Part shown: positions 825 to 17,211 of the stretch, piece after piece
Position numbering within the stretch: position 1 is the first letter of the stretch
How the letters are laid out: each line of letters begins with the position of its first letter
Assembly: GCA_937931785.1 (NCBI GenBank)
Contig: CALHAX010000071.1
Span: 1-38,959 of the forward strand
DNA length: 38,959 bases
Reading direction: 5' to 3'
Source of the DNA: an uncultured Hyphomicrobiaceae bacterium
Lineage (GTDB): Bacteria; Pseudomonadota; Alphaproteobacteria; Rhizobiales; CALHAX01
Position numbers and translations under genes: made by a program
Notes under the pieces: generated by a model
Databases searched by the model: none
What the model saw: the letters and a program-made list of their open reading frames with translations, nothing else
What the model was told of the DNA's origin: nothing

Positions 825-889
825 CCTGTGCTGCTAGCACGTTGCGGTGGAAGACGCGACGGGAATACATGCTGGATTGCAGGGAACGC

Positions 890-2155: not shown

Positions 2156-2276
2156 GAATGACACGATCTGAATGCTGGAGAACGACGTTCTGTGCCCTAA
2201 CGAGCAATCGCCGTGCCACCCGGTGTAGCCCGATGCTGAAACCAGACCTCGATCCACATCGCAGTTAAGCGATTTG

Positions 2277-2636
2277 TTAACTGGAAATAAGCGCAAGACC
2301 ACCAAGAGCGAGCCAGGTCAGGGCGAGTCCGCGCAAGAGCCAACGCCCTCGTTTGGCAAGAACCAAACCACCGAACAGCAAAAGAACGATAAGCGCACCA
2401 CCTGACACAAGATTGATGACGGCCATTCCTTCGATTCCGAGCCCATTGCGGCCGTAGCCTTCCGTGAAGATTGCGCACGCCAACGCCAGCAGTGTTATGC
2501 CCAGCATTCGGGGATAAAACCGCTGGTCCACATGCGGCAGACCAAGCAACGAGGCAATGGGTTTGGGCACAACAACCAGGGCGACACCCGAGATCACCGC
2601 CAACAGCGTGTTGATCCAGAGAATTTGTTCCGCCAT
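2277..2636 (-). CDS. small four-helix inner membrane protein
   Basis: A 119-residue protein with four predicted membrane helices (about residues 5-24, 43-60, 70-92 and 98-117) and short loops; charged residues are scarce outside the loops. It begins at an ATG preceded by a GGGAGAG ribosome binding site, which supports the start. I recognise no catalytic motif. Length and layout match many small uncharacterised proteobacterial membrane proteins. It lies between the methyltransferase and acyltransferase genes on the same strand, with a gap of about 120 bases before the acyltransferase start. Function unknown. Confidence 0.7.
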   Translation of the reverse strand: MAEQILWINTLLAVISGVALVVVPKPIASLLGLPHVDQRFYPRMLGITLLALACAIFTEGYGRNGLGIEGMAVINLVSGGALIVLLLFGGLVLAKRGRWLLRGLALTWLALGGLALISS

Positions 2637-2733
2637 GTCGTCTCTCCCGCAACCCGCTTCAGCATGTGCCGCTGTTTACGACGGAAGACAAGTATGAATG
2701 CGCGAGGTTGACGGACTGAGGTGGGCGGCTGGC

Positions 2734-3549: not shown

Positions 3550-3637
3550 GACCAGCTAGAGGCAACATTTATGCCAGCCATGAAGGCCTGAACACGATTT
3601 ACACCTGGCTCAACATCTTCGTTGCTAGCAGGCCGGA

Positions 3638-4162
3638 TTATTCCTTGGGAGCCAACGCTTCATCTGTTGTTTTTTCTGGTGGTTTCACGCCAGTGTCGAA
3701 AGCATCAAAGAGGCCGCCTGTGGGAACGTCCTTCGTTTTCTCGATCTTGCGGGCTGCAAAGTCGCCGGCAAGATAACGTCCCAGATCGGCACGTGTCTCG
3801 TTCACCCGCTTTTCGGTGCAATAATCGCCTTCGGTCTTGTTGATTCGATCCGTAATCTCAATCCGCGCAAACTCATACGATTTCTCAAGCGCCGGAAGAC
3901 TTTCCGCTTGTGCACCCTGGGCCAATTCGTAAGCGATATAGCTCTGCTTCAGCGTTGCTGCGTCCAGATTGAAGCCGCATTTGTTGGCGCGGCTAACATT
4001 CCAGGCGACCTGAACGGCGCGTGTCTTCGGATCGGCAACAGGAGCAGATACCAGATCGGCCGCCGAAGGTTTCTTCGTCGATCCGCCACCGAGTAGCGTC
4101 GACGCATTGCCGCCGCAAGCTGCGAGCGAAAGCGTCAGAATGGGAATAACCAGCCGTTTCAT
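3638..4162 (-). CDS. predicted lipoprotein of unknown function
   Basis: Starting at the ATG at 4162, the product is 174 residues with a textbook lipoprotein signal: basic start (M-K-R), hydrophobic core and lipobox L-A-A-C with the lipidated cysteine at residue 16. A Gly/Ser-rich linker follows, then a helical, charged domain containing two cysteines that could form a periplasmic disulfide. The open frame extends 28 codons upstream, but that part would bury the signal peptide, so the internal start is preferred. I do not recognise the mature domain. It sits downstream of the VWA gene on the same strand. Confidence 0.78.
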   Translation of the reverse strand: MKRLVIPILTLSLAACGGNASTLLGGGSTKKPSAADLVSAPVADPKTRAVQVAWNVSRANKCGFNLDAATLKQSYIAYELAQGAQAESLPALEKSYEFARIEITDRINKTEGDYCTEKRVNETRADLGRYLAGDFAARKIEKTKDVPTGGLFDAFDTGVKPPEKTTDEALAPKE

Positions 4163-4292
4163 GGTGTCAGGCAAAACCCAGTTGTGTGGCAACGTCAAGG
4201 CAGATGCGTCACGGGGTGAAGATAATCGGGGAAAGCATGTGGACACAACGTAAGAAGCAGCCGTTCCAACACATTATTGCGGTCACCACAGC

Positions 4293-5468
4293 TTAACGCA
4301 TCAATTCCCGCATCGCGTCGTCGAGTCCTTCCAGAGTCATTGGGAACATGCGATTTTCGAAGATCTGGTTCACCATCTGAATCGACTGGGTCCACTGCCA
4401 GTGCGCTTCCGGTACGGGATTGAGCCAAACAGCATTTTCGTAGACCTCGAGAACCCGTTGCAACCAGAGCGCACCCGGCTCCTCGTTCATGTATTCGACC
4501 GATCCACCGGGCACCACGATTTCGTAAGGACTCATTGATGCGTCACCAATGAAAATGATCTTGTAGTCCGATCCGTACTTGTGCAGCAGATCCCATGTAT
4601 TGATCTTCTCGGTCCACCTTCGCCCATTGTCCTTCCAGACGTAGTCGTACAGGCAGTTGTGGAAATAATAGTATTCCAGATGCTTGAATTCGGCACGTGC
4701 CGCAGAGAATAATTCTTCGGCGTTCTTGATGTGCCAGTCCATCGATCCTCCCACATCAAAGAACATCAGAACCTTGACGGTGTTGCGTCGCTCCGGTCGC
4801 AACTTCAGGTCCAGATAGCCCTGATGTGCCGTCGACCGGATGGTGCCGTCGAGGTCCAATTCGTCAGCAGCGCCCTGGCGGGCGAATTTGCGCAACCGGC
4901 GCAGCGCGACCTTGATGTTACGTGTGCCAATCTCGATCGTGTCATCGAGATCCTTGAACTCGCGCTTGTCCCAAACCTTGATGGCGCGGAAGTTCCGGTT
5001 TCCCTTTTGACCGATGCGTATGCCTGCGGGATTGTAGCCATCGGCACCATAGGGTGATGTGCCGCCCGTCCCGATCCACTTTGAGCCGCCCTGGTGACGT
5101 TTCTTTTGTTCTTCGAGACGTTTTTTCAGTTCCTCCATGATTTTGTCCCAACCGCCCATTTCTTCGATTTTCTTTTTCTCGTCTTCCGAGAGATGAAGTT
5201 GGGAAACGGTGCGAAGCCATTCCTCTGGAACATCGGCCTCGATGGCCTCGTTCATCAGGTCGAGACCTTTGAAGACGTGCCCGAAAACCTGGTCGAACTT
5301 GTCGAGATGACGTTCGTCTTTCACCAGTGCGGCGCGCGCCAGATAATAGAAATCCTCAACGCGGCCAGAGGCGAGATCTGCTTCCAGCGCCTCCATAAGG
5401 AGCAGGTACTCCTTGAGCGTCACGGGCAGACGTGCGGCCTTTAGTTCGTAAAAGAAATCGATGAACAT
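4293..5468 (-). CDS. VWA domain protein, CoxE-like family
   Basis: This 391-residue protein matches the CoxE-like VWA family usually encoded near MoxR-type AAA+ ATPases. The N-terminal half is helical (residues 1-110, beginning M-F-I-D-F-F-Y-E-L-K). A Lys/Glu-rich segment and a Gly-rich linker (about 125-165) follow. The C-terminal VWA domain has a MIDAS-like metal site, F-F-D-V-G-G-S-M-D, near residue 238. The family variant D-x-G-G-S replaces the classical D-x-S-x-S. A later I-F-I-G-D-A-S-M-S strand supplies the second metal-binding position. These proteins are thought to act with MoxR ATPases in assembly or maturation of protein complexes. No MoxR gene is visible in this window, so the partner is missing or elsewhere. 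Confidence 0.85.
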   Translation of the reverse strand: MFIDFFYELKAARLPVTLKEYLLLMEALEADLASGRVEDFYYLARAALVKDERHLDKFDQVFGHVFKGLDLMNEAIEADVPEEWLRTVSQLHLSEDEKKKIEEMGGWDKIMEELKKRLEEQKKRHQGGSKWIGTGGTSPYGADGYNPAGIRIGQKGNRNFRAIKVWDKREFKDLDDTIEIGTRNIKVALRRLRKFARQGAADELDLDGTIRSTAHQGYLDLKLRPERRNTVKVLMFFDVGGSMDWHIKNAEELFSAARAEFKHLEYYYFHNCLYDYVWKDNGRRWTEKINTWDLLHKYGSDYKIIFIGDASMSPYEIVVPGGSVEYMNEEPGALWLQRVLEVYENAVWLNPVPEAHWQWTQSIQMVNQIFENRMFPMTLEGLDDAMRELMR

Positions 5469-5540
5469 GTTGAGGCTTCTAGCTTTGGCTCAGGTTGGCG
5501 AGTGCCATGTCAGTTTGCGCGCAACACGCGTCCTTCAAAA

Positions 5541-5891
5541 TTATTCGACCGCCGCAATGCAAATAATTTCCACCTTGAAGCCCTCGGTTGCGAGCCGGGC
5601 TTCGCCACAGGCCCGTGTCGAGGCATGCCCTTGTGGGACCCATGCGTCCCATATGGCATTCATCTCGGCAAAATCATCCATGTTGGCCAGCCAGATCGTT
5701 GTTTGCAGAATGCGGTTCTTGCTGGATCCGGTTTCTGACAGGAGGCGATCAATGTTTGCCAGGATCGCTGTTGTTTGTGCGGCAACGCTTTCGCCTTCCG
5801 CGCCCACTTGTCCGGCGAGATAGATTACCCCGTTGTGTACGACGGCCTGGCTCATGCGCTGGTTGGTTTCGATACGTTTGATGTCGGACAT
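5541..5891 (-). CDS. ridA: RidA family enamine/imine deaminase
   Basis: A 116-residue protein of RidA/YjgF/YER057c length and pattern. RidA hydrolyses reactive enamine/imine intermediates such as 2-aminoacrylate made by PLP enzymes, which protects the cell. Family signatures visible are N-x-R-M-S-Q-A-V near the start, the Y-L-A-G-Q-V strand, the helix V-A-A-Q-T-x-A-I-L-A-N-I, and the C-terminal S-T-R-A-C-G-E-A-R-L-A segment, whose first Arg corresponds to the carboxylate-binding Arg. The penultimate strand ends in V-E-I-I-C-I-A. I chose the ATG at 5891 (M-S-D-I-K-R-I-E); an upstream in-frame start at 5954 would add 21 non-conserved residues. It lies just upstream of the VWA gene on the same strand. 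Confidence 0.9.
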   Translation of the reverse strand: MSDIKRIETNQRMSQAVVHNGVIYLAGQVGAEGESVAAQTTAILANIDRLLSETGSSKNRILQTTIWLANMDDFAEMNAIWDAWVPQGHASTRACGEARLATEGFKVEIICIAAVE

Positions 5892-6058
5892 GGAATGGCT
5901 CCAGAAGAGTTGTTTTGCTTTCCGCACAATGGCTGCACCGTCACATGGACGCAACCCGCAGGCCGCCAGTCACAAGGTAACGACAACAGATTCCAGGGTG
6001 TTGTGTTCCAGATCGGCAATGTGGAGGACGTGGTGGACGGTCAGGGGGTGTCTACGTG

Positions 6059-6415
6059 TTAATCCAGCAACTCATGAACGGTTTCGGCGGGGCGGCAGAG
6101 ACGGACGCCTTTCGGTGAGCAGACAATAGGGCGATTGACGAGAACGGGATGCTCGATCATTGCCTGCAGAATAGCGTCGTCTGCGATGCTGGGATCCAGG
6201 AGACCCAGCTCTTCCGCGGGGGATCGCTGCACGCGCATGGCCTCGCGGGGTGTCAGGTTCGCAGCCGCGAACAAGGCAAGTAATTGCGGTCGCGTCCAGC
6301 CATCTTCCAGATAGTTGATCACGATGGGGGTAACGCCCGCCGCACGAATGAGTTCCAAAGTGTTGCGCGAAGTTCCGCATGCTTCGTTGTGATGAATGAC
6401 CACGGCCATCTTCAA
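6059..6415 (-). CDS. ArsC-like (glutaredoxin-dependent arsenate reductase family) protein
   Basis: The 118-residue product is full length for the ArsC/thioredoxin-fold family. The nucleophile motif H-N-x-A-C-G-T-S-R-N is at residues 9-18 (Cys13), and the distal block H-P-V-L-V-N-R-P-I-V, which carries a catalytic Arg, is present. Known members reduce arsenate using glutathione/glutaredoxin. The context is unusual: the start overlaps the stop of the fumarase-like beta subunit gene by 4 bases (ATGA), making this the last gene of the dehydrogenase/hydratase operon. There are no ArsR, ArsB, Acr3 or ArsH genes nearby. It could be a genuine arsenate reductase or a redox helper for the iron-sulfur enzymes upstream; sequence alone does not decide. 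Confidence 0.85.
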   Translation of the reverse strand: MKMAVVIHHNEACGTSRNTLELIRAAGVTPIVINYLEDGWTRPQLLALFAAANLTPREAMRVQRSPAEELGLLDPSIADDAILQAMIEHPVLVNRPIVCSPKGVRLCRPAETVHELLD

Positions 6416-7086
6416 ATCACTTCCTTCGTCTTGTCGTCCAGTTCGCCATAGCGCTGCATGGTGGCAGGGCGGGTGCCTTCGTAGGCAGCCTCTATCCCCG
6501 CAGCGACCTTTGCATTCTCGCGTTCAAACAATGAGTTCCCATGGATGTCTCCTTCGACGAGAAACGGCCCCATCTTCTCGACGTCGAGAACCCAGATCGC
6601 TTGCGCCAGACCCAACTCGTTCCGCCAGTGTGCGTCGACCACCGACTTGATGCCACGTCCGAGCAGAGCCCCGGTGCCGTATCCCACTGTGGTGAGGTAG
6701 ATTGCGTTGGCGGGGACGAAAGATTTTTTATAAATCTCGCTCGTCATCCCGCCTTTGCCAATGATCACGTTGCATCCTGACAGCTCGAACCAACCGTCCA
6801 GCCATTTGGCAAAACGAAACGATGCGGTTGCCGTAACTGCGCCGACATTGAGGGTCCCGTCCTCGTTAATTCGTGCCGCAGGAGAACAATGAAAGTTGGC
6901 TGATCCCATTTGTTCGCGACTTGCGGGGAGGCCATGGCCGTCTTCGACCGCACGCTTGTAGACGCCTTCGCGCGCCGTGAAAATGCGACCGGTCAGATAG
7001 ACGACCGTGCCGATTTCGAGTTCTGCCAGCGTGTCGCGTGAGGCCGGGAGTTCCAGCGTCACAGTTTTGAGTTTTGTTTTGGTCAT
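6412..7086 (-). CDS. class I fumarase/tartrate dehydratase-like beta subunit
   Basis: A 224-residue protein resembling the C-terminal (beta) half of [4Fe-4S] class I hydro-lyases (FumA C-terminal domain, TtdB). Family blocks seen are the opening T-L-E-L-P strand, the V-V-Y-L-T-G-R-I-F-T-A-R-E segment with K-R near residue 44, and the later I-I-G-K-G-G-M. The beta domain helps bind the dicarboxylate next to the cluster held by the alpha subunit. The segment where fumarases usually have G-P-T-T-S-x-R-M reads G-A-V-T-A-T-A-S-F-R-F here, so the substrate may not be fumarate; tartrate, mesaconate or another dicarboxylate is possible. It starts 3 bases after the alpha-subunit stop. Confidence 0.82.
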   Translation of the reverse strand: MTKTKLKTVTLELPASRDTLAELEIGTVVYLTGRIFTAREGVYKRAVEDGHGLPASREQMGSANFHCSPAARINEDGTLNVGAVTATASFRFAKWLDGWFELSGCNVIIGKGGMTSEIYKKSFVPANAIYLTTVGYGTGALLGRGIKSVVDAHWRNELGLAQAIWVLDVEKMGPFLVEGDIHGNSLFERENAKVAAGIEAAYEGTRPATMQRYGELDDKTKEVI

Positions 7087-7089
7087 CAG

Positions 7090-8052
7090 CTATTCTGCCG
7101 CCTGCGCCATTGGTGTGTCCCACTCGACGGTTGTGCGGCGGGAATAAGCAGAGAACCATTCCGGATCGGTCCGGTATTCGACGTGTCCATCAGCATGCAC
7201 ACGGGCCGTTGCCCGGCGCGACGAGAGACAGAACATGTGGACCGACATCGGCATCCCGCCAGTGTGGCAATAGCCTGCCTCGATGTTGCAATCGACCACC
7301 ATCGACGACCCCATGAACCCCATGGCGCCCATGCCTATGGAGTTGCCAAGCTCTTTCAGCTCCACTTCCAGTTGTGCGATATCCGGATCAGGGTGGACGG
7401 AACCCACTGTGCGCAGACACGCTGCGTGTTTGCCCAACACCATGCATGTGTCCTTGTTGCCGCCGAGTCCGATGCCGACAATGGCGGGTTGGCAGGCGAG
7501 ACCGCGTTTGCCGAATGCGACGAGTGTGTCGAGGAAGAAGCGCCGAATGCCTTCGATACCATCACCGGGAAACAACATGCGATAGTCCGTGCCGAACAAA
7601 CCGCCCTTGTGCACTGTTGTCAGGTCGACCCAATCCGCGTCTGGATGAAATGCATACTCTATCTCTGGTGCGTTCATGCCGACATTGTTGTCGTGATCGG
7701 CGCGGGTGAGGGGATGGACGCGGTTCGGACGTAACGGAATGTTGTGTGTGGCTTGTGCCGTTGCGCGACGCAGTGCTGCTTCAAGCGCAATTGGTCCACC
7801 ATCTATGCGCGCTTCGTTCCCGTATTTGACATACCAGCGCGGACAACCGGTGTCCCCGCACATGGCGCGACGGTCTTCTTCTGCGGCTTTGTAATTCTCC
7901 AACATCGCCTGGATGACAAATGCGGAAAGCTCACCGGACTCGATGTCTGCAAGTTTTTCGAGGCCTGCGAGATAGTCGGCCGGAATCTCGATTGCGGCCT
8001 TGGCCGTCAGTTCCTCGGCGGTGGTTTGTAGGGTTGCAATGGGGATTGCCAT
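7090..8052 (-). CDS. class I fumarase/tartrate dehydratase-like alpha subunit
   Basis: This 320-residue protein corresponds to the alpha (cluster-binding) part of iron-sulfur class I hydratases. I see the first ligand motif M-C-G-D-T-G with Cys65, the block R-P-N-R-V-H-P-L-T-R with N-N-V-G, a central G-I-G-L-G-G-N-K-D-T-C block that supplies the second cysteine, and a C-terminal C-H-T-G-G-M-P block that supplies the third. The three Cys would hold a [4Fe-4S] cluster whose free iron binds substrate. It is close to the size of E. coli TtdA rather than fused FumA/B, so this is a two-subunit enzyme. The start is 6 bases after the stop of the flavoprotein gene, so dehydrogenase and hydratase are made together. 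Confidence 0.85.
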   Translation of the reverse strand: MAIPIATLQTTAEELTAKAAIEIPADYLAGLEKLADIESGELSAFVIQAMLENYKAAEEDRRAMCGDTGCPRWYVKYGNEARIDGGPIALEAALRRATAQATHNIPLRPNRVHPLTRADHDNNVGMNAPEIEYAFHPDADWVDLTTVHKGGLFGTDYRMLFPGDGIEGIRRFFLDTLVAFGKRGLACQPAIVGIGLGGNKDTCMVLGKHAACLRTVGSVHPDPDIAQLEVELKELGNSIGMGAMGFMGSSMVVDCNIEAGYCHTGGMPMSVHMFCLSSRRATARVHADGHVEYRTDPEWFSAYSRRTTVEWDTPMAQAAE

Positions 8053-8058
8053 CTCGTT

Positions 8059-9801
8059 TTACTCCGCTGCGGCAGGTGCGTCTGTCAGCAATGTCTCGCC
8101 GGGGCTTATGCGTGTGAATGCGACGGGTTGGTTTGTTACTTCGAGCTGCCCGTTCATCTCGCGTACGACCGTGAACGTTGATGTGTCCAGTTCGCCTGCA
8201 TCGGGAAAATCCTCGCGATAATGTGCGCCGCGGGAATTTTCGCGGGCAAGCGCTGCACTGGCAATGACCTTCGATATCGCAATCAGATTTTTCAGATTCA
8301 ACCAGTCATGCCAGGTCAGGTTGAACGCGCGATTGCTGTCGCCGATGCCGCAGCTTTTGAGTTCCGCTTCGATATCGTTCAGTTGACCAAGGCCACGGTT
8401 CAGACTCTGTGCATCACGCAGGATACCGACATCATTCCACATGACGTCAAGCAATGTATCACGGACCCGGTTCATATCGCCGTTCCCTGAGTTGAATGGT
8501 GCTCCCACGGTTATCACTGCTTGTTCGATGGCGTCTTCGTCGGGTACTCGCGCGTGCGGGTTCCGGGCCAGCCAGTCCGGCATGGTGTCGCCTGCGATTC
8601 CGCCAAACACGGTGGAGTTGGCGACGCCGTTTCCGCCAAGTCTGTTGGCGCCATGGACGCCACCGGCATCTTCGCCAGCAACGAACAACCCGGGCCATTC
8701 CGTCGACGTGTCCACGTTGCAAACGAGGCCACCCATGAGGTAGTGCGCCGTTGGAACAACCTCGACAAGTCCACCTGCCAGGTCGAAACCACAGTCGCGG
8801 CACCGGTCCACCATGCCCTTGAACTGTTTCGCGACCTTCTCCGGTCCGAGATGCGCCATGGAGATATAAAGTCCACCTTCCGGGGTGGTGCGACCTGCGC
8901 GCATTTCCTCGAACATCGCGCGCGAAACGATGTCGCGTGTCGCACGTTCGCCGCGTGGGTCATATCGTTCCATGAAGCGTTCCTGATTGCCGTCGAAAAG
9001 ATAGCCACCAGAACCGCGCAGACCTTCCTCGATGATGGTGCCGGTCATCCGCGTATCAGTACCGGCGAGCACACCGGTCGGATGAAATTGCACCATTTCC
9101 ATATCCCGCAACGGCAATCCGACAGAAAGCGCCATGGCGAGACCGTCCATCGACTTGTCTCCGGACGGTGTGTGATAACGGTACATCGTCGGCCCGCCAC
9201 CCGTTGCGAGAAGAATGGCCTTTGCCTCGACAAACCTGAAACCGCCCGTGCGAATGTCAATCATCAAGACGCCAGAAATACCGTCTCCCTTTGCGTCGGG
9301 GATGAGCGCGATGGCACGATGTTCTTCCAGCTTCGTGATCGGCAGAGCCCAGACTTGTTCCATCAGCCGATTGATGATTTCGATACCGGTGAGGTCGCCC
9401 TTGTGGACTGTACGATCAAAGGTCTGACCGGCGAACGCCTTGCCGTGCAGGGAACCATCAGGATTGCGATCAAAGAAGCAACCGACCTCGTTTTCCAACT
9501 CATGGACGCGCTCGACAGCTGTTTCGACGAGCGTCCATGCGAGATCTTGATCCGGGAGCCATTTCCCCCCCTCGATCGTGTCCATGAAGTGTCGTTCGAC
9601 GCTATCTCCGGCATTGAGCGCGACGTTATATCCGCCTTGCACCATGCGTGTGCAACCGGACTTGCCGAGAAGCCCCTTGCTTGCGATTGTGATGTCGAGG
9701 TTGGGATTGGCACGCGCTGCATGCAGGGCGGCAAACAACCCGGCACCGCCTGTGCCGAGGATCAGGATATCGGTTTTGCTACGCTCAAGCTTCGCTGGCA
9801 T
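8059..9801 (-). CDS. sdhA: succinate dehydrogenase/fumarate reductase-like flavoprotein subunit
   Basis: A 580-residue FAD protein starting at the ATG at 9801, which overlaps the stop of the SdhC-like gene by one base (TGATG). The dinucleotide-binding G-T-G-G-A-G is at residues 16-21. Substrate-site features of the family are present: F-H-P-T-G near 240, E-E-G-L-R-G-S-G-G-Y-L, the R-D-I-V-S-R arginine near 290, and P-T-A-H-Y-L-M-G-G near 352. A-N-R-L-G-G-N-G binds FAD near the end of the domain. At the place where SdhA/FrdA carry the His that binds FAD covalently (S-H-T-V-A-A-Q-G-G), this protein has G-C-T-R-M-V-Q-G-G, so Cys50 replaces His. It is probably a distinct subfamily oxidising or reducing succinate-like dicarboxylates at the membrane. 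Confidence 0.88.
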   Translation of the reverse strand: MPAKLERSKTDILILGTGGAGLFAALHAARANPNLDITIASKGLLGKSGCTRMVQGGYNVALNAGDSVERHFMDTIEGGKWLPDQDLAWTLVETAVERVHELENEVGCFFDRNPDGSLHGKAFAGQTFDRTVHKGDLTGIEIINRLMEQVWALPITKLEEHRAIALIPDAKGDGISGVLMIDIRTGGFRFVEAKAILLATGGGPTMYRYHTPSGDKSMDGLAMALSVGLPLRDMEMVQFHPTGVLAGTDTRMTGTIIEEGLRGSGGYLFDGNQERFMERYDPRGERATRDIVSRAMFEEMRAGRTTPEGGLYISMAHLGPEKVAKQFKGMVDRCRDCGFDLAGGLVEVVPTAHYLMGGLVCNVDTSTEWPGLFVAGEDAGGVHGANRLGGNGVANSTVFGGIAGDTMPDWLARNPHARVPDEDAIEQAVITVGAPFNSGNGDMNRVRDTLLDVMWNDVGILRDAQSLNRGLGQLNDIEAELKSCGIGDSNRAFNLTWHDWLNLKNLIAISKVIASAALARENSRGAHYREDFPDAGELDTSTFTVVREMNGQLEVTNQPVAFTRISPGETLLTDAPAAAE

Positions 9802-10151
9802 CACAAGACCCGTGTAAGAAAGACGAATGCGACGACAGCTGCGATGGAGGTTGTGAGGGTTGCAAGTGTCTTGTGATCCTCGCGCCAAGGCAGATTTTCT
9901 ATCACCAAAACACGCAAACCGCCCAACAAGTGAATTGTCAGGAGAAAAACCAGCCCCATTTCGGCGAATTTGACCAGTGGGTTTTCCGTCCAGATCAGGA
10001 AACCGTCGAGTGCGGCTTCGCCTTCGAGGGCCAATCCGAGAACAAGGAAGTGGAACGGAAGAAAAAGAGCGAGCAAGACGCCAGACACACGATGTATCAT
10101 GGCGGCAATCCAGAGCATGTTTCCACGATAGGCTGTGTTGCGCACACTCAT
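9801..10151 (-). CDS. sdhC: SdhC-like cytochrome b membrane anchor
   Basis: The 116-residue product has three membrane helices (about residues 20-40, 60-85 and 95-115). Near the first helix is the M-I-H-R-V-S-G motif, equivalent to the H-R-x-(T/S)-G quinone-site signature of SdhC. A second conserved histidine, H-L-L-G-G-L-R-V-L, sits in helix 2 where the heme b ligand lies in family members. I chose the ATG at 10151 because it overlaps the stop of the preceding anchor gene by 4 bases and gives the usual family length; the frame is open further upstream but is not SdhC-like there. It should anchor the flavoprotein/iron-sulfur pair and pass electrons to or from quinone. Confidence 0.82.
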   Translation of the reverse strand: MSVRNTAYRGNMLWIAAMIHRVSGVLLALFLPFHFLVLGLALEGEAALDGFLIWTENPLVKFAEMGLVFLLTIHLLGGLRVLVIENLPWREDHKTLATLTTSIAAVVAFVFLTRVL

Positions 10152-10492
10152 GATAAGCTCCCGGGGAACACAACAGCGATTACGGCACGTGTTCCAAATG
10201 CCAGCAATAGTAACCCGAAGCCCCACATCAAACCGGTCTGCGGGCGTGGACCAATCCGTAACCAGTCTCGTGCTACGGAGCGCAGCCCGATCGCGCCATG
10301 AACGGCCGCGGCAATAACGAACACCTGGTAGAACAGTCCCCATGCGATGCTGCCGCGTGTCCGCGCCAGGATTTCGGAAGCTGTCAGCCCGTTGCCTGTC
10401 GCGTAGACTATCAGTGCGAGATGTATTGCGATCAGCGGGACCATAAGTGCAGCCGTGCCGCGCTGAAGTATGTAAAGGCGCATGGGGGTCAC
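10148..10492 (-). CDS. SdhD/FrdC-like membrane anchor
   Basis: A 114-residue, three-helix membrane protein (about residues 12-32, 52-72 and 88-108). Histidines are placed in helix 1 (I-A-I-H-L) and helix 2 (A-V-H-G-A-I-G-L-R), as expected for the second cytochrome b-type anchor of a succinate dehydrogenase/fumarate reductase. Anchor subunits diverge quickly, so the assignment depends partly on position: it lies between the iron-sulfur subunit and the other anchor. Its start overlaps the SdhB-like stop by 4 bases and its stop overlaps the next start by 4 bases, which implies translational coupling. Confidence 0.75.
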   Translation of the reverse strand: MTPMRLYILQRGTAALMVPLIAIHLALIVYATGNGLTASEILARTRGSIAWGLFYQVFVIAAAVHGAIGLRSVARDWLRIGPRPQTGLMWGFGLLLLAFGTRAVIAVVFPGSLS

Positions 10493-11220
10493 GACAGCTC
10501 ACCGCGGATGTACGCATCTACCGTCAATCGCTTCAGACCTGCGATAGACTCCGTAGGGTTCAACCCAATCGGGCAGTGCTGTTCGCAGGATTGATGTGAA
10601 TGGCAACTATGACAGCCTCCATTGGCGGACACGGCTTTGAGGCGCTGGGGGCCGCCAGCATCCCGCTCGTCGTTGGCCAGAGTCCAAGCCCGGTTCAAGG
10701 CTGCGGGGCCGAGATACGCCGGGTTCCATCGTACGCTATCGCATGCCGCGTAACATACGCCGCAATTTATACATTCGATTGCTTTGTCAGCAGCTTGTCG
10801 TTTTGTTGTCTCCGGAGAAATCGTGGCCATGGGATCGACCCGCGTTTTTGAGGGATGAAATTTTCCTTCTGCTTTTTCCCATTTGTCAAAGAACGGACGC
10901 ATGTCAGCAACAAGGTCCTTAATCGGGGGGAGGTTCGCCAGTGGGGCGAGTTCCAGTTTGCCATCCTGATCCACGACCTTCGAAATGTGCGTTCGGCATG
11001 TCCATCGAGGACGTCCATTTACCGTCATCGCGCATGACCCGCATACGCCAACGCGGCAGGCAAAGCGGTATGCGAGAGATGGTTCGGTGTTGCGTTGAAT
11101 CCAGGTCACCACATCAAGAACCGTCTGGTTGTCCTGACGTGGGACCTCGAACGTTTGATAGTGCCCGTCTGCGAAACCACGCCACACGGAGACTGAAAGG
11201 TGTTTGGCGGTGTTGGACAC
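10489..11220 (-). CDS. sdhB: succinate dehydrogenase/fumarate reductase-like iron-sulfur subunit
   Basis: This 243-residue protein has every cluster motif of SdhB/FrdB. The [2Fe-2S] ligands are C55, C60, C63 and C75 (C-R-V-G-V-C-G-S-C). The first ferredoxin motif is C150, C153, C156 and C160 (C-I-N-C-G-V-C-Y-A-A-C), and the second is C206, C212 and C216 (C-H-S-H-Q-S-C-E-Q-H-C-P), for the [4Fe-4S] and [3Fe-4S] clusters. An extra cysteine, C203, gives C-H-S-C-H-S, which I do not recall from standard SdhB. It is the first gene of the operon, starting with GTG at 11220. No strong Shine-Dalgarno sequence is visible. It passes electrons between the flavoprotein and the membrane anchors. Confidence 0.88.
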   Translation of the reverse strand: MSNTAKHLSVSVWRGFADGHYQTFEVPRQDNQTVLDVVTWIQRNTEPSLAYRFACRVGVCGSCAMTVNGRPRWTCRTHISKVVDQDGKLELAPLANLPPIKDLVADMRPFFDKWEKAEGKFHPSKTRVDPMATISPETTKRQAADKAIECINCGVCYAACDSVRWNPAYLGPAALNRAWTLANDERDAGGPQRLKAVSANGGCHSCHSHQSCEQHCPIGLNPTESIAGLKRLTVDAYIRGELS

Positions 11221-11342: not shown

Positions 11343-11861
11343 CTAGTCGAGGGGGATGCTGTTCGCAAGTTGCGTCATGATGCGATTATGCGCCTGTTCT
11401 TCGGTGATTCCAAGGACGAGCGCCATTTCCTCGCGCAATCGCATGACGGCTGTATTGTAGGTTGTTTCTACGGAGAAGGGGATATCGCGCACTGTTTTCG
11501 AGCGATGCAGATCGCGAGCGACGTTGGCAATCTTGATTAGATCGCCTGTGTTGATGCGTTCTTCACACAAGGGAACCAAGCGATACTGGTCAGCCTGGCG
11601 CACTTTCGACGGTGAGCTGAGTTTTTCAAGCATGCGTGTGATATCCGTCTCACTTGCAAGAGGTCGAACGCCGTCCTGTGAGAGTCTCGCTGTCGGTATG
11701 CGGAGCGTCAGTTTGCTGCGTGTGAAGGAAATGACAGAAACATCAAGCTGCGTTCCAGCCATCTCGAGTGTCTCCTGGCCTGATATACGCCCGAGCCCAT
11801 GGGCCGGATGAATGACCAACTTGCCCAGTTCATCGTCCGATTTGTTCTGCTGGATGGTCAT
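11343..11861 (-). CDS. carD: CarD family transcriptional regulator
   Basis: A 172-residue protein with the N-terminal CarD/TRCF RNA polymerase-interaction domain (residues about 10-70; V-I-H-P-A-H-G-L-G-R-I is the hallmark start, then V-S-V-I-S-F and K-L-T-L-R-I-P). A helical C-terminal domain contains a W-free R-x(4)-E-E-R segment. CarD/CdnL proteins bind the RNA polymerase beta subunit and stabilise open complexes, commonly at rRNA and growth-related promoters. The length is typical of alphaproteobacterial CarD. Its ATG overlaps the stop of a short upstream frame (ATGA). The iron-sulfur dehydrogenase operon follows after 122 bases on the same strand. Confidence 0.9.
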   Translation of the reverse strand: MTIQQNKSDDELGKLVIHPAHGLGRISGQETLEMAGTQLDVSVISFTRSKLTLRIPTARLSQDGVRPLASETDITRMLEKLSSPSKVRQADQYRLVPLCEERINTGDLIKIANVARDLHRSKTVRDIPFSVETTYNTAVMRLREEMALVLGITEEQAHNRIMTQLANSIPLD

Positions 11862-12237: not shown

Positions 12238-12347
12238 TATGCGTCGTCTGAAGGTTTTGCCGCTTGCATGCTGCGCCACAAGACCGCTAGAGCGTTGAAG
12301 TCGCGTGTGTCTTGTCTTTTGTGGTTACCGATTTCGGGGAGGTTGCC

Positions 12348-12671
12348 GTGGGAAATTCAAATGATCCAACGCAGAGTGATCGCGCATCATCGAATTTGGG
12401 GGACATGGAACAGGTTCGCCAGTTGCTGCTTGGGGATCACCAGGCTGCACAAGAACGGCAGATTTCCGCACTTCAGGAACGTGTCACGCAACTTGAAACG
12501 TTGGTTGACGCGCTAATTGCTCATGGTGACACTGTGCGCCGGGCTTGGCAAGCAGATGTCGCCACATTGAAAAACTCGGGGGGCCGTGAAGTCGGCTCAC
12601 GCTCGGTTCTGCAGCAAGTCACGCCCTTGACGCCTCGTACTGGCGAGGGAGATGCGTCTCGACATGACTGA
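12348..12671 (+). CDS. small coiled-coil protein, first gene of GTPase signalling operon
   Basis: A 107-residue hydrophilic protein. The GTG start at 12348 has a very strong GGGGAGG ribosome binding site 5 bases upstream, which is why I prefer it to a TTG at 12312. Residues about 20-65 form a likely coiled coil rich in Q, E, L and R (L-Q-E-R-V-T-Q-L-E-T-L). A polar tail follows. There is no signal peptide or membrane segment. Its end overlaps the start of the OmpA-domain sensor gene, so it should be co-translated with it and may be a cytosolic adaptor for that protein or the GTPase. I recognise no family. Confidence 0.65.
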   Translation: MGNSNDPTQSDRASSNLGDMEQVRQLLLGDHQAAQERQISALQERVTQLETLVDALIAHGDTVRRAWQADVATLKNSGGREVGSRSVLQQVTPLTPRTGEGDASRHD

Positions 12672-14463
12672 GACGGCCACAGAAATTGGAGATGTGTCCC
12701 GTCTGAAATCGTTGCTGTTTCGTAAGGAGCAGCAGGCGATCGATGATATGCGTAACATGCTCGATGACCACCACGAGCGAATCGGATCCGATACCGGCAT
12801 GCGTGAAAGTGTGTCGGGGGTTCTTGCGGATGCTCTGCGTGATGCACGCGTCAAACAGCACAAGCAGGTTGCAGATGCGATAGCACCGCTGCTCGTCGAA
12901 GGCATGAAACGTGAGATCAAGAACTCACGTGATGAAATGGTCGACGCGCTGTATCCGATCATGGGTCGTCTGGTATCGGCATATGTTGCAAGCGCCGTTG
13001 CCGATGTCATGAATCAGACAAACCAGCGTCTCGAGTCGGGTTTAAGCGGGCGGTTTCTTTACTTGCGTGGTAAGGCCCTGCTGACCGGCCAATCCTACGA
13101 AGACCTTGCTGTTGCTGACCGCCAAAGGTTTCAGATCAACGAATTGATGTTGATTAGACGTGGATCCGGCGTGCTTCTGGATCATATGAAGCTTGATTTG
13201 GAAGACGCGGCAGCAGCATCGTCACAGCATGACAGTGCGATGGTAAGCGGTGTTGTGGCAGCGATCCATGATTTTGCTCAAGAAGCGTTTTCCGGAGAAA
13301 AATCCTCCTTGCGTTCTGTCGACATGGGCGATGAGACAATTTATCTTCGTGCCACGTCTGGATTGATCCTTGCCGTGGTTGGCCGGGGCAAGGCGAAGCG
13401 CAAACTCGAACGTGCGCTGGATTCCGAGCTGCTGACATTGCTTGAGGAACGCAGCGCAGATATTCAACGTCTCGAAGACGAGACAACAGAGCACGCACCG
13501 AAAATTCTCCCGGCCGTCGCTGATCGTCTTATGGGCGTTCAAATTGAAGCCAGTCAGAGCAAACCGATCCTTGCGATCCTTTTTGTCGCTCTGTTGGGTG
13601 CTGCAATTGCAGGATATGTGGCCTGGTCTACCTATGAAAGCTGGCAAACGGAGCGTTTGCGTTCGGTCGTTATGGCGACAATCTCGGAGCAATCCGCGTT
13701 TGACGGATTTCCTATTCAAGTGAATGTTGCCCCGGATCGCAGTCGTGTTCAGATCGCTGGATTTGCGCCTTCAACTGTTGCACGTGACGAGCTTGTCCAA
13801 TCTCTCGACCAGGTTGCGGGTGAGACTGTCGTTGCTGCGAAGTTCAATATCATACCCTCGGTCGCAGGTGTTGAGGAACGCCTCAATGCAGCGGAGGCAA
13901 GTGTTGCAGATGTCAGCTCCAGATTAACGCAAGCAAGAACACGTCTGGACGAAACGGCGGAGCGTGCCGCACTGAACGAATTGACATTCGATGTGGCACG
14001 GATCCTGGAACAAAACCGTGTGCAGCGTCGCGAAGTTGACGAACGTGCCGAAGCTCTGCAACGACGTATCGCGGCTCTTGAGGCAAGACCAGCGACGACA
14101 ACGAAAAGTACACTTGGGCGCTGGATACTGGATAACGGGGTCTTTTTCGGTGATGGAACGACCTACCGGGATCCTGCTCTGGCTGCACAAACGCTGTCGG
14201 AACTCAGACAACTGATGCGAGACACGCCGTCGGCTCGCATTCGTATTGTTGGCTATTCTGATATTCGCGGGCGTGCGGCCCTGAACGCCACTCTTGCTCA
14301 GGACCGTTCCGAAAGGGTCGCGGCCGATTTGCTTGGAGCTGGTATCACAGAGGATCGTATCATTGCGGTTGGCCGACAGTCTGAACGTCAGTTCAGTACG
14401 CGCACTGGTCCTGAAAGCGGTAACCGGCGCGTTGAGTTTGAACTTCTGTTCAAAGGTGAGTAG
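12664..14463 (+). CDS. inner-membrane sensor-like protein with periplasmic BON-like and OmpA domains
   Basis: About 599 residues (603 if the ATG at 12652 is used; that ATG abuts its GAGGGAG box, so 12664 is better spaced). Residues 1-115 are a helical cytosolic region. Residues about 125-280 are a domain I associate with OmpA proteins encoded beside bacterial small GTPases: F-L-Y-L-R-G-K-A-L-L-T-G, then L-M-L-I-R-R-G-S-G-V-L-L-D-H, then V-A-A-I-H-D-F-A-Q-E-A-F. One membrane helix spans about 301-322 (I-L-A-I-L-F-V-A-L-L-G-A-A-I-A-G-Y). After it come a BON-like alpha/beta domain (about 330-395), a coiled coil (400-465) and a C-terminal OmpA domain (about 490-599) with the N-R-R-V-E-F end that binds peptidoglycan. 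The layout could couple the cell wall to the cytosolic GTPase encoded next. Confidence 0.82.
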   Translation: MTETATEIGDVSRLKSLLFRKEQQAIDDMRNMLDDHHERIGSDTGMRESVSGVLADALRDARVKQHKQVADAIAPLLVEGMKREIKNSRDEMVDALYPIMGRLVSAYVASAVADVMNQTNQRLESGLSGRFLYLRGKALLTGQSYEDLAVADRQRFQINELMLIRRGSGVLLDHMKLDLEDAAAASSQHDSAMVSGVVAAIHDFAQEAFSGEKSSLRSVDMGDETIYLRATSGLILAVVGRGKAKRKLERALDSELLTLLEERSADIQRLEDETTEHAPKILPAVADRLMGVQIEASQSKPILAILFVALLGAAIAGYVAWSTYESWQTERLRSVVMATISEQSAFDGFPIQVNVAPDRSRVQIAGFAPSTVARDELVQSLDQVAGETVVAAKFNIIPSVAGVEERLNAAEASVADVSSRLTQARTRLDETAERAALNELTFDVARILEQNRVQRREVDERAEALQRRIAALEARPATTTKSTLGRWILDNGVFFGDGTTYRDPALAAQTLSELRQLMRDTPSARIRIVGYSDIRGRAALNATLAQDRSERVAADLLGAGITEDRIIAVGRQSERQFSTRTGPESGNRRVEFELLFKGE

Positions 14464-14477
14464 GCGGTGACCGGGCG

Positions 14478-14984
14478 ATGTTGACGCGCAAGATCATGCT
14501 TCTCGGCGAGATTGCTGTCGGTAAAACTGCACTGGCGCGTCGTCTGGTGTTCAATCAGTTTGAAGCCGGATACAAGGCGACGCTTGGCGTTGACATCTAC
14601 ACGCACGTTCTCGTTCCTCAACCTGTTCCAGAGACGCCGGTCAAGTTGTCGATCTGGGATATTGATGGAGATTTGTCCGAAGGTATTTTCTCCCATAACT
14701 ATATCAAAGGTGCGTCCGGTGCTCTGATTATCGGAGATGCAACGCGTCCGGCCACGATCAATGCGATGATAGCTCTCGCTGATACATTCCGCGATACGCA
14801 ACCGGGACGGCCATTCGTATATGTCTTGAACAAGCTCGACCTGGTAGAGGACCATACCTTGATGGTTCCTCCAGCCCTGCAGGATCCGGAAGCGATACTC
14901 CACAAGACCAGTGCCATGACCGGGCACAACGTTGGTGAAGCGTTTTCCGATCTTGCAACGGCAATTATCAGGATTGGAGCATGA
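14478..14984 (+). CDS. Rab/Ras-like small GTPase
   Basis: A 168-residue protein with all five G motifs. G1 is G-E-I-A-V-G-K-T (10-17). G2 is the Thr at 35 in K-A-T-L-G-V-D-I, strikingly like the T-I-G-V-D-F switch I of eukaryotic Rabs. G3 is W-D-I-D-G-D (60-65), G4 is N-K-L-D (118-121) and G5 is T-S-A-M-T-G (144-149). In G3 the residues at the T-A-G-Q positions read I-D-G-D, so the catalytic Gln is Asp and intrinsic hydrolysis may be slow. There is no C-terminal lipidation cysteine. It starts 14 bases after the OmpA-domain gene and ends in a 4-base ATGA overlap with the histidine kinase gene. Likely a cytosolic switch between the membrane protein and the kinase. Confidence 0.9.
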   Translation: MLTRKIMLLGEIAVGKTALARRLVFNQFEAGYKATLGVDIYTHVLVPQPVPETPVKLSIWDIDGDLSEGIFSHNYIKGASGALIIGDATRPATINAMIALADTFRDTQPGRPFVYVLNKLDLVEDHTLMVPPALQDPEAILHKTSAMTGHNVGEAFSDLATAIIRIGA

Positions 14985-16468
14985 CTGTAACGCCTGAGTC
15001 GCGAACTGAGCGCGCTTTCTCAAGAGAAGACTTTTTTACGTTCCTGATCGACCGCGGTCTGGTCGCTCTTGCGTGGGCAGATGAAGATTTTGTCGTACAG
15101 GGTGCCACGGGAAAACTTGCGTGGTGGATTTCCGGCGGAGATAATCTTACGCAAGATTTGCCGCCGTTCATCGGTCTTGAGGACGACCTTCGCGAACTGA
15201 TGGATGACTTCAGGCCGTCACTGGTTCTGTCGAACATCGGCATGAACGTCGGGGTGGGTGACAGCGAAAAAGCATCTATTGAAGTGTTCTGGCAGGATGC
15301 GGCACGACTATACGTGCTGGTGCTCCATCGTCTTGGAGGGCAGCCCGAGTTTGAAGCCGACATGGCGCGTCAACTTCGGGGGCGACGCCTTGCGGAGGAA
15401 AATATTGCCGCAATGCAGCGCCGTGTCGCCAAAACCCAGGGGTTGCTCGATATCATATCGGAGCATGCTCCAATTGGCCTTGCCGTTCATGATGGTGATG
15501 ATCAACTCACGTTCATGACCAAGCGTTGGCTGGAGCATTTGCCCAGCTACAAGGGCAGATTCCCAAGCGGGTGTACGCATCCCTTCGATGCCGGGATGGA
15601 AAATGCAAGACAAGGGCACGAAAATCGGGGGTGGCCGACATATGACCAGCAAACAGGCGATGCGTGCGATGCAGCCCTTGGCGATCTCGCGTGGAGCCAT
15701 CGTCCGTGGCTGAATACGACAGGTGCAGTTGCGGGGGTCGTGTCTGCCGTGCATCCGGTTGGCGAGATGGCGAGCGAGATGAAAAATCTTCGTGATCGTG
15801 TTGCCGACCTGGAACGTGTGAATGCGGACCTTGAGTCTTTTGCATCCCTCCTGGCACACGATGTACGGGCCCCGATGGTTGCTCTGCGCACGAAACTGTC
15901 TTCAGCAGATTCAGGTCCGATCACGCTATCAGACGTCGATGCAACGCTGTCACGCGTTTTGCAGATTGCGAATGGCCTGCTTGAGTATGCCACTGGTAGC
16001 GGATTGTCAGGACCTGTTCATGAGGTTGATGTCGAGGCCATGGTTCGTCGTATTGCCGATGACTGTTCTACGGGAACATTGATGACGTTTGTATTTTCCG
16101 GTCATTGGCCCATCATTTCGACAGCAGTTGCTCCGCTAGATATTGTTCTGCGTAACTTGATGCAGAACGCTGTGCGCCATCACGACACGGGAGAGGGAAC
16201 GGTACACCTGCTTGCGCGGCCAGCCGCTGAGAGCTTTATCATAGAGATTGCCGACGACGGCCCGGGGATCGCCCCAGAATTTCATGAGCAGGTGTTTGCA
16301 CCGCTGGTCAAAGGGACCGAGGCTAATGAAACATCGAGCGGTCTGGGGCTCGCGTTTGTGCGACGTGCCGTGACGAGCGTTGGCGGGCATCTGGAACTTG
16401 AAAGTAACCCATCTGAACGACGGGGCAGCATGTTTCGTCTCAAGTGGCCAATTCAACGCGTATGTTGA
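14981..16468 (+). CDS. soluble PAS-type sensor histidine kinase
   Basis: This 495-residue kinase has no membrane segment. Residues about 15-140 and 160-265 look like two PAS-type sensor modules joined by a helix; the second begins near I-S-E-H-A-P-I-G-L-A-V-H-D. A coiled coil then leads to the H box L-A-H-D-V-R-A-P with the phosphoacceptor His at 293. The HATPase domain has the N box (L-M-Q-N-A-V-R-H-H), G1 (D-D-G-P-G-I-A) and G2 (S-S-G-L-G-L-A-F-V). The start codon overlaps the GTPase stop (ATGA), a strong sign that the two proteins work together. The expected partner is the response regulator 80 bases downstream. Confidence 0.92.
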   Translation: MTVTPESRTERAFSREDFFTFLIDRGLVALAWADEDFVVQGATGKLAWWISGGDNLTQDLPPFIGLEDDLRELMDDFRPSLVLSNIGMNVGVGDSEKASIEVFWQDAARLYVLVLHRLGGQPEFEADMARQLRGRRLAEENIAAMQRRVAKTQGLLDIISEHAPIGLAVHDGDDQLTFMTKRWLEHLPSYKGRFPSGCTHPFDAGMENARQGHENRGWPTYDQQTGDACDAALGDLAWSHRPWLNTTGAVAGVVSAVHPVGEMASEMKNLRDRVADLERVNADLESFASLLAHDVRAPMVALRTKLSSADSGPITLSDVDATLSRVLQIANGLLEYATGSGLSGPVHEVDVEAMVRRIADDCSTGTLMTFVFSGHWPIISTAVAPLDIVLRNLMQNAVRHHDTGEGTVHLLARPAAESFIIEIADDGPGIAPEFHEQVFAPLVKGTEANETSSGLGLAFVRRAVTSVGGHLELESNPSERRGSMFRLKWPIQRVC

Positions 16469-16513
16469 TGGTTTGATACAGCGGTTTCAAACCACTGTCG
16501 ATTGCGCTAACAT
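16469..16513 (+). promoter_or_regulatory. inverted repeat and candidate promoter before response regulator
   Basis: Directly after the kinase stop, TGGTTTGA (16469-16476) and TCAAACCA (16487-16494) form a perfect 8-base inverted repeat with a 10-base loop. A second, overlapping palindrome GGTTT-C-AAACC lies at 16483-16493. A weak promoter (TTTCAA, 17 bases, TAACAT at 16508-16513) overlaps the right arm. It could be a terminator-like hairpin, but there is no T run. An operator for the regulator gene at 16549 seems as likely, because related arms occur again before the downstream dehydratase gene. Confidence 0.4.
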
Positions 16514-16548
16514 ATTGTCGCATACCAGCTAACGAGAAGATTGATCCG

Positions 16549-17211
16549 TTGGATACGATGACTCCCAGCCCGTTGATCGGCAATGAAGAGACTAAAACGT
16601 TGTTATGTTATGTAGTTGATGACAACGATGTCGATCGCGCTGCGGCGACCCGGCTTGCGAGTGGTGCGGGACTGCTTGTACGTCAGTTCAATGGTGGGGA
16701 ATCATTTCTTGCAGCCTTGCCGGGGCTGAAACCCGGGCTCGTTCTCCTTGATGTCATGATGCCGAATGTCGATGGTGCCGCCGTCCTCGATGCACTCATG
16801 CCGCTGGATCGCGGAGATGTGGTCGTGATGATGTCTGCACAGGCCGATGTGGCGACAGCCGTCACGACAATGCGCAAGGGCGCTCACGATTTCATCCTGA
16901 AACCCCTGGAAACTTCGGATGGAGCAGCAGCGCTGACCCGTGCGATTGCTGCAGCAGGTGACAAGCAGAGCGCATCGAGCCATCGGGCAAAGGTGACTGA
17001 GACGTTGCGCAGCATTACCCCAAAGGAAATGGTCGTGCTGCGCAAACTTGTTGCTGGCAAGCGCAACAAGAACATTGCACACGAGCTGGGTGTGAGTGAG
17101 CGCACGGTTGAGGTGCATCGTTCCCGTCTCATCCGACGGGCTGACTCCGGTACGTTTGCCGGACTGATAGCGTTTGCGGTGAAAGCGGGCGTGGAGCCTG
17201 ATGATAGCTGA
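16549..17211 (+). CDS. FixJ/LuxR-type response regulator
   Basis: A receiver domain is followed by a LuxR-type helix-turn-helix. Receiver residues are the acidic pair D-D near 23-24, the phosphoacceptor Asp68 in L-L-D-V-M-M-P (numbered from the TTG), the Ser of M-M-S-A-Q and the Lys of L-K-P-L. The DNA-binding part (about 150-210) reads I-T-P-K-E-M-V-V-L-R-K-L-V-A-G-K, then I-A-H-E-L-G-V-S-E-R-T-V-E-V-H-R. I keep the TTG at 16549, which has a GAGAAG box 8 bases upstream; the ATG at 16558 is the alternative and gives a protein three residues shorter. It is the transcriptional output of the GTPase/kinase operon. Its own gene and the next one carry similar inverted repeats upstream. Confidence 0.92.
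   Translation: MDTMTPSPLIGNEETKTLLCYVVDDNDVDRAAATRLASGAGLLVRQFNGGESFLAALPGLKPGLVLLDVMMPNVDGAAVLDALMPLDRGDVVVMMSAQADVATAVTTMRKGAHDFILKPLETSDGAAALTRAIAAAGDKQSASSHRAKVTETLRSITPKEMVVLRKLVAGKRNKNIAHELGVSERTVEVHRSRLIRRADSGTFAGLIAFAVKAGVEPDDS

Follow-up and report, generated by a model that had tools for sequence, protein, structure and literature searches.

A Rab-like GTPase cassette of the Rup Group 1 type in an uncultured Hyphomicrobiaceae bacterium, with a predicted longin partner and a PAS-like output module

What does a small GTPase resembling the eukaryotic Rabs do between an envelope protein and a histidine kinase in a bacterium? The question is raised by five adjacent genes (positions 12348–17211) in a 38,959-nucleotide stretch of an uncultured Hyphomicrobiaceae bacterium (contig CALHAX010000071.1, assembly GCA_937931785.1), the whole of which is referred to here as the window. 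The genes encode a coiled-coil protein, an inner-membrane protein with a periplasmic OmpA domain, the GTPase, a histidine kinase and a FixJ-like response regulator. A preliminary description made from the sequence took the five as one unit in which the state of the cell wall sets the GTPase and the GTPase controls the kinase. Our analysis finds that the conserved core is a set of four genes, for the coiled-coil protein, the membrane OmpA protein, the Rab-like GTPase and an output protein whose first domain is PAS-like. The cytosolic half of the OmpA protein is predicted to hold a longin fold, and the cassette almost certainly belongs to the Group 1-type Rup systems, a gene neighbourhood described without experiments by Wuichet and Søgaard-Andersen in 2014 (PMC4316618; this and the other papers are cited from excerpts).

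A conserved four-gene core

Related loci were gathered from two sources. Whole genomes of the order and class gave 13 loci with a relative of the GTPase, from 12 genomes. A second scan picked contig loci by a GTPase pattern and supplied the best 80 of 135 confirmed loci; because of this selection the shares of taxa among the loci are not frequencies. With the duplicates L035 (of L024) and L036 (of L027) removed, the set comprises 92 loci, namely the window, the 13 whole-genome loci and 78 contig loci of the second scan; L029 and L030 belong to a single genome. A search for related loci with the single GTPase as query confirmed none.

The OmpA protein adjoins the GTPase in all 13 whole-genome loci, in L022 on the opposite strand. 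Of the 92 loci, 82 encode the cytosolic (longin) domain of this protein no more than 3 kb from the GTPase: in 76 it is upstream and on the same strand, in 5 it is downstream and in 1 it is on the other strand. The PAS-like module is encoded within 1.5 kb downstream of the GTPase in 81 loci, and in 74 of the 82 a coiled-coil match directly precedes the longin gene. All four genes occur together in 66 of 92 loci. Among the 74 loci having more than 3 kb of upstream and 0.9 kb of downstream sequence, the domain is present in 70, the module in 66, the coiled-coil gene in 63 and everything in 58. A cytosolic-half profile built from the window and 12 relatives finds a match within 3 kb in 68 of the 78 second-scan loci, which had been picked by the GTPase alone; six of the ten loci it missed have less than 1.1 kb of upstream sequence. 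Loci with the cytosolic domain span 12 named phyla (Pseudomonadota, Nitrospirota, Chloroflexota, Bacteroidota, Cyanobacteriota, Planctomycetota, Acidobacteriota, Actinomycetota, Myxococcota, Campylobacterota, Calditrichota and Thermodesulfobacteriota).

Within the class, the GTPase was detected at E 1e-15 in 6 of 289 genomes, that of the window included; a seventh copy, in G041 (8.7e-13), is cut by a contig end. At a looser cut-off it was detected in 8 of 61 relatives. The cytosolic domain was found in 8 of the 289 class genomes, among them all seven that carry the GTPase. The four-gene cassette is sparse but coherent. The preliminary description had asked whether the families co-occur and had held that a gene order not conserved in relatives would speak against its reading; since the four-gene set is kept across phyla, the outcome was the opposite.

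Several loci depart from the usual layout. In the Chloroflexota loci L082 and L088 the order is changed, running from the GTPase through the coiled-coil and longin genes to the output genes. L028 (genome G254, 225–5680) has tandem longin-OmpA proteins of 885 and 557 amino acids, with the coiled-coil gene between them, before one GTPase. The cyanobacterial L063 and L069 possess the longin-OmpA gene and the GTPase without a downstream module, and in L069 a 774-amino-acid signalling-like gene and a receiver-like gene (both judged by eye) lie upstream. In L129 (genome G139, about 5627–10893, minus strand), two longin-OmpA genes flank a coiled-coil gene, and a flavoprotein-like gene, again judged by eye, comes directly after them.

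In the window itself, all five open reading frames (ORFs) are found on the plus strand with the domains first assigned to them, and both overlaps reported earlier are confirmed: the GTPase and kinase genes share the four bases ATGA, and the coiled-coil and OmpA genes overlap by 20 bases. The coiled-coil gene (12348–12671) encodes 107 amino acids from a GTG at 12348, which has GGGGAGG upstream of it at 12336–12342; an ATG at 12405 is another option, and the longest frame opens with a TTG at 12312. The coiled coil of its product was judged by eye and from weak hits.

The switch and its envelope-anchored partner

The GTPase (14478–14984, 168 amino acids; Ras PF00071, 7.1e-19) has all five G motifs: G1 as GEIAVGKT, T35, G3 as WDIDGD with D61, NKLD and TSA. 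Its closest solved relatives by sequence are Rabs (a Thorarchaeota Rab at 2e-18, Rab38 and Rab14), and a profile of 12 members, the window's included, places Rab-family chains among the best 60 of 935 PDB matches. From Rabs it departs at the catalytic glutamine of G3, whose position is taken by D65. This glutamine is missing from 86 of the 87 GTPases with a readable G3, five of the 92 not being readable by the pattern used. A single Ras-type domain with G1 to G5, a length inside the range of 150–240 amino acids and the aspartate in G3 are the features by which Rup proteins are recognised, and the window's GTPase shows each of them. One account ranks Rup proteins as the nearest group in prokaryotes to Rab, Rho, Ras and Ran and leaves the phylogeny unresolved (PMC4915359). 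A partner of the MglB roadblock type was considered for the GTPase and rejected: no Robl_LC7 match above the cut-off was found in the five proteins or in the window's genome, which gave weak hits only.

The neighbouring membrane protein (12652–14463, 603 amino acids) consists of a helical region, the predicted longin domain (residues 159–302; 13126–13557), a transmembrane helix (residues 306–324; 13567–13623), a periplasmic region and an OmpA-type domain (residues 511–591; 14182–14424; PF00691, 2.8e-9; YiaD chain, 1e-7). Residues 306–324 are its single strong hydrophobic stretch by hydropathy, which leaves about 300 cytosolic residues, as the preliminary description had it. We aligned 55 of these cytosolic domains and made an AlphaFold2 model of residues 1–304 of the window's protein (mean predicted local distance difference test, pLDDT, 84; predicted template modelling score 0.57). 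In the model, residues 7–158 are mostly helical. They are followed by strands at 161–169 and 175–180, a helix at 195–212, strands at 222–225, 228–234 and 238–245, and helices at 250–274 and 286–302. The predicted topology of residues 159–302 is the longin order β-β-α-β-β-β-α-α with an extra C-terminal helix.

The best PDB match by Foldseek is the Rab7 guanine-nucleotide exchange factor (GEF) Mon1-Ccz1 at 9.8e-5, with template modelling (TM) scores of 0.27 by query and 0.45 by target; Ragulator, TRAPP and AP2 chains come later, and 20 matches reach 0.001. VIA-align places the longin domain of Sec22b at the top (Z 12.8, root-mean-square deviation 2.7, 125 residues aligned), followed by Vamp7 (12.4), Ykt6 (12.0), Fuzzy (11.6), Mon1A (11.4), TRAPP (11.3), an Asgard roadblock (11.0) and MglB (10.5), rows within 1 Z of each other counting as ties. 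These data suggest that residues 159–302 very probably fold as a longin domain. We speak of a longin fold and assign no named longin family, since no significant sequence match to a longin family was obtained. The longin fold is new for the Rup Group 1 domain, which the 2014 account gave as of unknown function (PMC4316618), and in open-licence PMC papers we found no bacterial longin partner of Rup GTPases in print.

The possibility that the domain is a roadblock of the MglB kind, acting as a GTPase-activating protein (GAP), is improbable in our estimate. The Z scores of MglB and the Asgard roadblock, as well as the weak Robl_LC7 hits, point towards it, and the hhalign alignment to MglB-like proteins brings a strand and a helix into register at a low score. 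Against this, the longin chains are aligned over the whole of 159–302 with the last helix, with Z up to 12.8, whereas the MglB rows cover about 160–273. The loss of the N-terminal helix and the gain of an extra C-terminal one mark longins off from roadblocks (PMC10933270).

The envelope side of the protein is more variable. OmpA and SH3 domains bind the cell wall. OmpA is in the same frame as the longin domain in 58 of the 82 loci and in a separate frame in 2, and the profile detects none in the other 22; the idea that OmpA is essential to the cassette was consequently rejected. Three longin proteins of Chloroflexota end in bacterial SH3-like domains, that of L046 above the Pfam cut-off and those of L077 and L088 below it. 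In the Bacteroidota loci L089, L093 and L110 and in the Actinomycetota that bear the fusion described below, the protein consists of its cytosolic part only (273 to 291 amino acids). The exchange of OmpA for another domain of wall-binding kind favours the wall as the input, and the lack of any envelope domain in some lineages makes the cytosolic part the core of the protein. That the state of the wall is the input to the cassette is, on balance, an even proposition.

The longin protein and the coiled-coil protein have a motif of the type (L/I/V)(R/K)xLL in common. It is seen in the N-terminus of the former (SRLKSLLFRKEQQAID, residues 16–31; 12697–12744) and as MEQVRQLLLG in the latter (12405–12434). 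The motif was first noticed by eye; a loose pattern, run with no shuffled control, then picked it up in 69 of 74 longin proteins and 69 of 74 coiled-coil proteins. Either protein may imitate the other at a docking site that both use.

The output module, the fifth gene and the flanks

The fourth gene of the window (14981–16468) encodes a histidine kinase of 495 amino acids with H293 in LLAHDVRAP and a HATPase_c domain at residues 386–492 (3.6e-20). It has no predicted transmembrane helix, and no 19-residue window of the coiled-coil protein, GTPase, kinase or regulator exceeds a mean hydropathy of 1.6, which is consistent with the soluble kinase proposed earlier. The first 118 residues of the kinase adopt a PAS-like fold and are followed by a 42-residue helix (AlphaFold2, mean pLDDT 92.6); the PAS-like module itself occupies residues 15–118 (15023–15334) and the signalling helix residues 121–162 (15341–15466). 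PAS and LOV proteins match the module by Foldseek, and photoactive yellow protein does so by VIA-align with Z 10.2.

The PAS-like module is carried by at least eight kinds of output. A Pfam scan of 52 representatives of the 82 output ORFs revealed HATPase_c in 28, a sigma-54 activator in 6, a class III cyclase in 4, GGDEF in 3, EAL and SpoIIE in 2 each and HD in 1. The kinase share of 28 in 52 is a lower bound, eight output ORFs running off the sequence end. A scan of ten output proteins added a LuxR-type helix-turn-helix (HTH) in L022 and LytTR in L099. Besides the nearest downstream ORFs, 10 further ORFs in the 92 loci match the module profile (the ORF set of 94 loci numbered 7117); because the profile was extended in five rounds that all used these ORFs, it can drift. 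In a tree of 63 rows made by a quick method, at least 11 changes of output are required among 49 labelled rows, the labels being assigned by profiles, motifs and similarity of our own and partly by Pfam. The window falls in a clade of 16 rows (support 100), whose rows of named origin are all alphaproteobacterial, with L022 as sister (97). In L022 the LuxR-type HTH sits directly on the module and the kinase is missing; going by its domains, this arrangement is a putative short cut round the phosphorelay.

Such variety of outputs, while the GTPase, the module and the longin domain stay the same, fits an output role for the fourth gene. The proposal that the output is a kinase holds for the window, where the kinase has the module, and for at least a little over half of the representatives. 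In L053 and L048, which are 93 to 94% alike, the GTPase and the module are found in one protein, with an HD domain by Pfam in L053 and a run off the contig in L048. No further fusion of the two was seen among 199 genomes beyond this pair. The natural fusions link the switch to the output and make it likely that the GTPase acts on the output module. Two tandem matches to the module were noted in outputs of L037, L045, L112 and Nitrospira loci (L096, L102 and others), which could provide two docking sites for the GTPase.

The fifth gene (16549–17211, 220 amino acids) codes for a FixJ-like response regulator, a receiver with D68 (Response_reg, 8.6e-19) plus a LuxR-type HTH (GerE, 9.2e-14). It starts at TTG 16549 or ATG 16558, after an 80-base gap behind the kinase gene. 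Judging from position and residues, a phosphorelay from H293 of the kinase to D68 of the regulator is likely. As a member of the core the regulator was rejected: in L020, L021 and L033 a short receiver-like protein, identified by eye, follows the kinase in place of it, and L022 is without a kinase. The idea of a five-gene unit is thus reduced to a conserved core with a local regulator.

Directly upstream of the cassette and divergent from it, a CarD-type regulator is encoded on the minus strand (11343–11861; CarD_C, 2.8e-12). Genes for the flavoprotein, membrane and iron-sulphur subunits of an enzyme like succinate dehydrogenase or fumarate reductase, recognised by eye, occupy 8059–11220 of the same strand. 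A promoter scan gave 5 hits vs. 2.9 ± 1.6 in shuffled sequences and a terminator scan 7 vs. 6.3 ± 2.2; neither was used.

Wiring, relatives and meaning

We favour, with moderate confidence, a scheme in which the envelope-anchored longin protein sets the GTPase, and the GTPase, by acting on the PAS-like module, gates the kinase. The state of the peptidoglycan or its distance would be reported by the OmpA domain together with the periplasmic stretch, and this signal would alter the pairing or exposure of the longin domains. The latter would serve as a nucleotide-exchange, or else a GTPase-activating, platform for the GTPase at the membrane, in the way of longin and roadblock dimers for Rabs and MglA. 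The coiled-coil protein, with its share in the common motif, may help to assemble this platform or compete in it. The loaded GTPase would then bind the PAS-like module and alter the signalling helix, whereby kinase or phosphatase activity would be switched and transcription changed through the FixJ-like regulator. The direction from the wall through the GTPase to the kinase, as well as the chemistry of the longin domain (GEF or GAP), we infer. What stands of the preliminary wiring is that the OmpA protein is predicted to contain a fold common to GTPase regulators and that switch and output are physically joined in two loci.

A number of observations weigh against this scheme. The longin assignment comes from one AlphaFold2 model with moderate Foldseek TM-scores; some of the regulator rows in VIA-align are within 1 Z of MglB, and middling Z values are common. 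Sequence comparisons stay below significance: Fuz_longin_1 scores 18.1 bits vs. a cut-off of 26.1, Robl_LC7 is weak in 3 of the 55 members, and a PDB profile search with the cytosolic domain yields only BET5 at E 1.8, below chance matches to ferritin. The hhalign comparison with MglB-like proteins, made with whole ORFs of which 7 of 19 lack their first part, scores 19 vs. 8 to 12 for three controls (P 0.013, probability 3%). The longin fold, moreover, occurs in SNAREs and adaptors too and does not tell a GEF from a GAP. On the envelope side, the OmpA profile finds none in 22 of the 82 loci (L094 is cut by the contig end), and a Pfam scan of 10 of these 22 longin proteins gave no OmpA and, for seven, no match at all. 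On the output side, five of the 11 loci without a module have at least 3 kb of downstream sequence with none there (L023, L024, L034, L063 and L069), and the fusion is limited to two close relatives. Genome G139 has its two longin proteins and coiled-coil gene (1e-10) without a GTPase or module nearby; no GTPase was found in it at the class-wide cut-off and no output module in the 16.5 kb read. Perhaps the switch has been lost from this relative, or the longin protein serves there as an orphan. Finally, 45 of 50 output modules have a glutamine where the signalling helix begins, and in its place the window, L020, L021, L022 and L033 have R, A, R, G and A, respectively; a glutamine stands one place later in the window (Q131), L020, L021 and L033, and none does in L022.

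The same glutamine is central to a reverse wiring, which we regard as unlikely. Here, the output module would be the GTPase-activating partner, the kinase or its ligand would set the GTPase, and the GTPase would finally control the longin-OmpA protein, for instance the way it clusters or grips the wall, much as MglA governs polarity. The lack of a catalytic glutamine in nearly all readable GTPases, next to its presence at the helix start of most modules, speaks for such an arrangement, and the 2014 paper speculated that the glutamine of the N-terminal region of the outputs acts in trans (PMC4316618). However, because the residue is displaced in the window's clade, the idea does not carry over simply to this locus, and the diversity of outputs beside a constant GTPase, module and longin domain also argues for the scheme from the envelope to the kinase. 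A direct signal from the longin protein to the output module, with the GTPase as a timer or assembly factor instead of the signal carrier, has a low probability: G139 shows longin and coiled-coil genes persisting without the GTPase, although its 16.5 kb are also devoid of an output module, and in L053 and L048 it is the GTPase, not the longin protein, to which the module is fused. The sparse distribution of the cassette and the non-conserved fifth gene might even suggest that the genes are neighbours by chance, or that a bystander GTPase lies beside an ordinary two-component system. This view is contradicted by the gene-set counts in 12 named phyla and by the fusions, and it is hardly credible.

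How does the cassette relate to systems already described? The preliminary description considered the direct wiring of a Ras-type switch into a two-component pathway to be rare. That view needs amending: the kind is known as Rup Group 1, and a coupling of Ras-like GTPases to histidine kinases is described for actinobacterial conservons as well (PMC4316618). With Rup Group 1 the window shares a coiled-coil protein, a conserved-domain protein often provided with a transmembrane helix and OmpA, a GTPase without the G3 glutamine and a fourth gene for a kinase or cyclic di-GMP enzyme with a conserved N-terminal region; Group 1 is not coupled to an MglB homologue (PMC4316618), and the window's genome gave no Robl_LC7 match above the cut-off. 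Mesorhizobium, from which that paper names the member mll3243 (PMC4316618), carries these genes too, for example at L044. Group 1 outputs are described with an invariant glutamine in the N-terminal region (PMC4316618); in our alignment the window has R130 in the glutamine column and Q131 next to it, and the published columns may differ from ours. The typical outputs given in 2014 were kinases and GGDEF/EAL proteins, and according to the same excerpts the only experimental finding on Rup proteins was that one of them is transcribed (PMC4316618). In open-licence PMC papers we found no later experimental work on Group 1. Our data go beyond that account in the predicted longin fold, the additional output classes, the fusion of GTPase and output, the exchange of OmpA or failure to find it in some lineages, and the displaced glutamine of the window's clade (PMC4316618).

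Actinobacterial conservons likewise unite a Ras-like GTPase, a partner of the roadblock/longin class and a histidine kinase in one operon (PMC4316618). They differ in having a membrane kinase (CvnA), a separate MglB homologue of roadblock type (CvnB), CvnC and an MglA-type GTPase (CvnD), and in lacking both a response regulator in the operon and an OmpA protein (PMC4316618); of a CvnB-type roadblock, too, no Robl_LC7 match above the cut-off was seen in the five proteins or the genome. MglA and MglB, too, join a Ras-like switch in bacteria to a roadblock/longin-superfold protein, in their case a GTPase of the other prokaryotic family without the G3 aspartate and a stand-alone roadblock (PMC4316618). 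Mon1-Ccz1, TRAPP and Fuzzy-Inturned resemble the cassette in combining a longin platform with a Rab-type GTPase, as judged here from fold matches and Rab sequence matches. Unlike it, they are eukaryotic, serve membrane traffic or cilia and have reported GEF activity (PMC5216073, PMC7719173, PMC6864590).

In the broadest reading, to which we give equal chances of being right or wrong, a widespread operon-encoded Rab-like GTPase with a membrane-anchored longin platform would read the envelope and pass the signal through one PAS-like module to interchangeable outputs. This pairing would be the counterpart in bacteria of the longin RabGEF machines (TRAPP, Mon1-Ccz1 and Fuzzy-Inturned) and possibly related to their ancestor. 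If the longin prediction is true, Rab-like switches would be paired with longin platforms outside eukaryotes and Asgard archaea as well, and the Group 1 Rup GTPases would gain a testable candidate for the regulator left open in 2014. The bacterial GTPases closest to Rabs would then be tied to the class of regulators that Rabs themselves use. In general, the cassette would represent a way of plugging a G-protein switch into kinases, cyclases, phosphatases and transcription factors.

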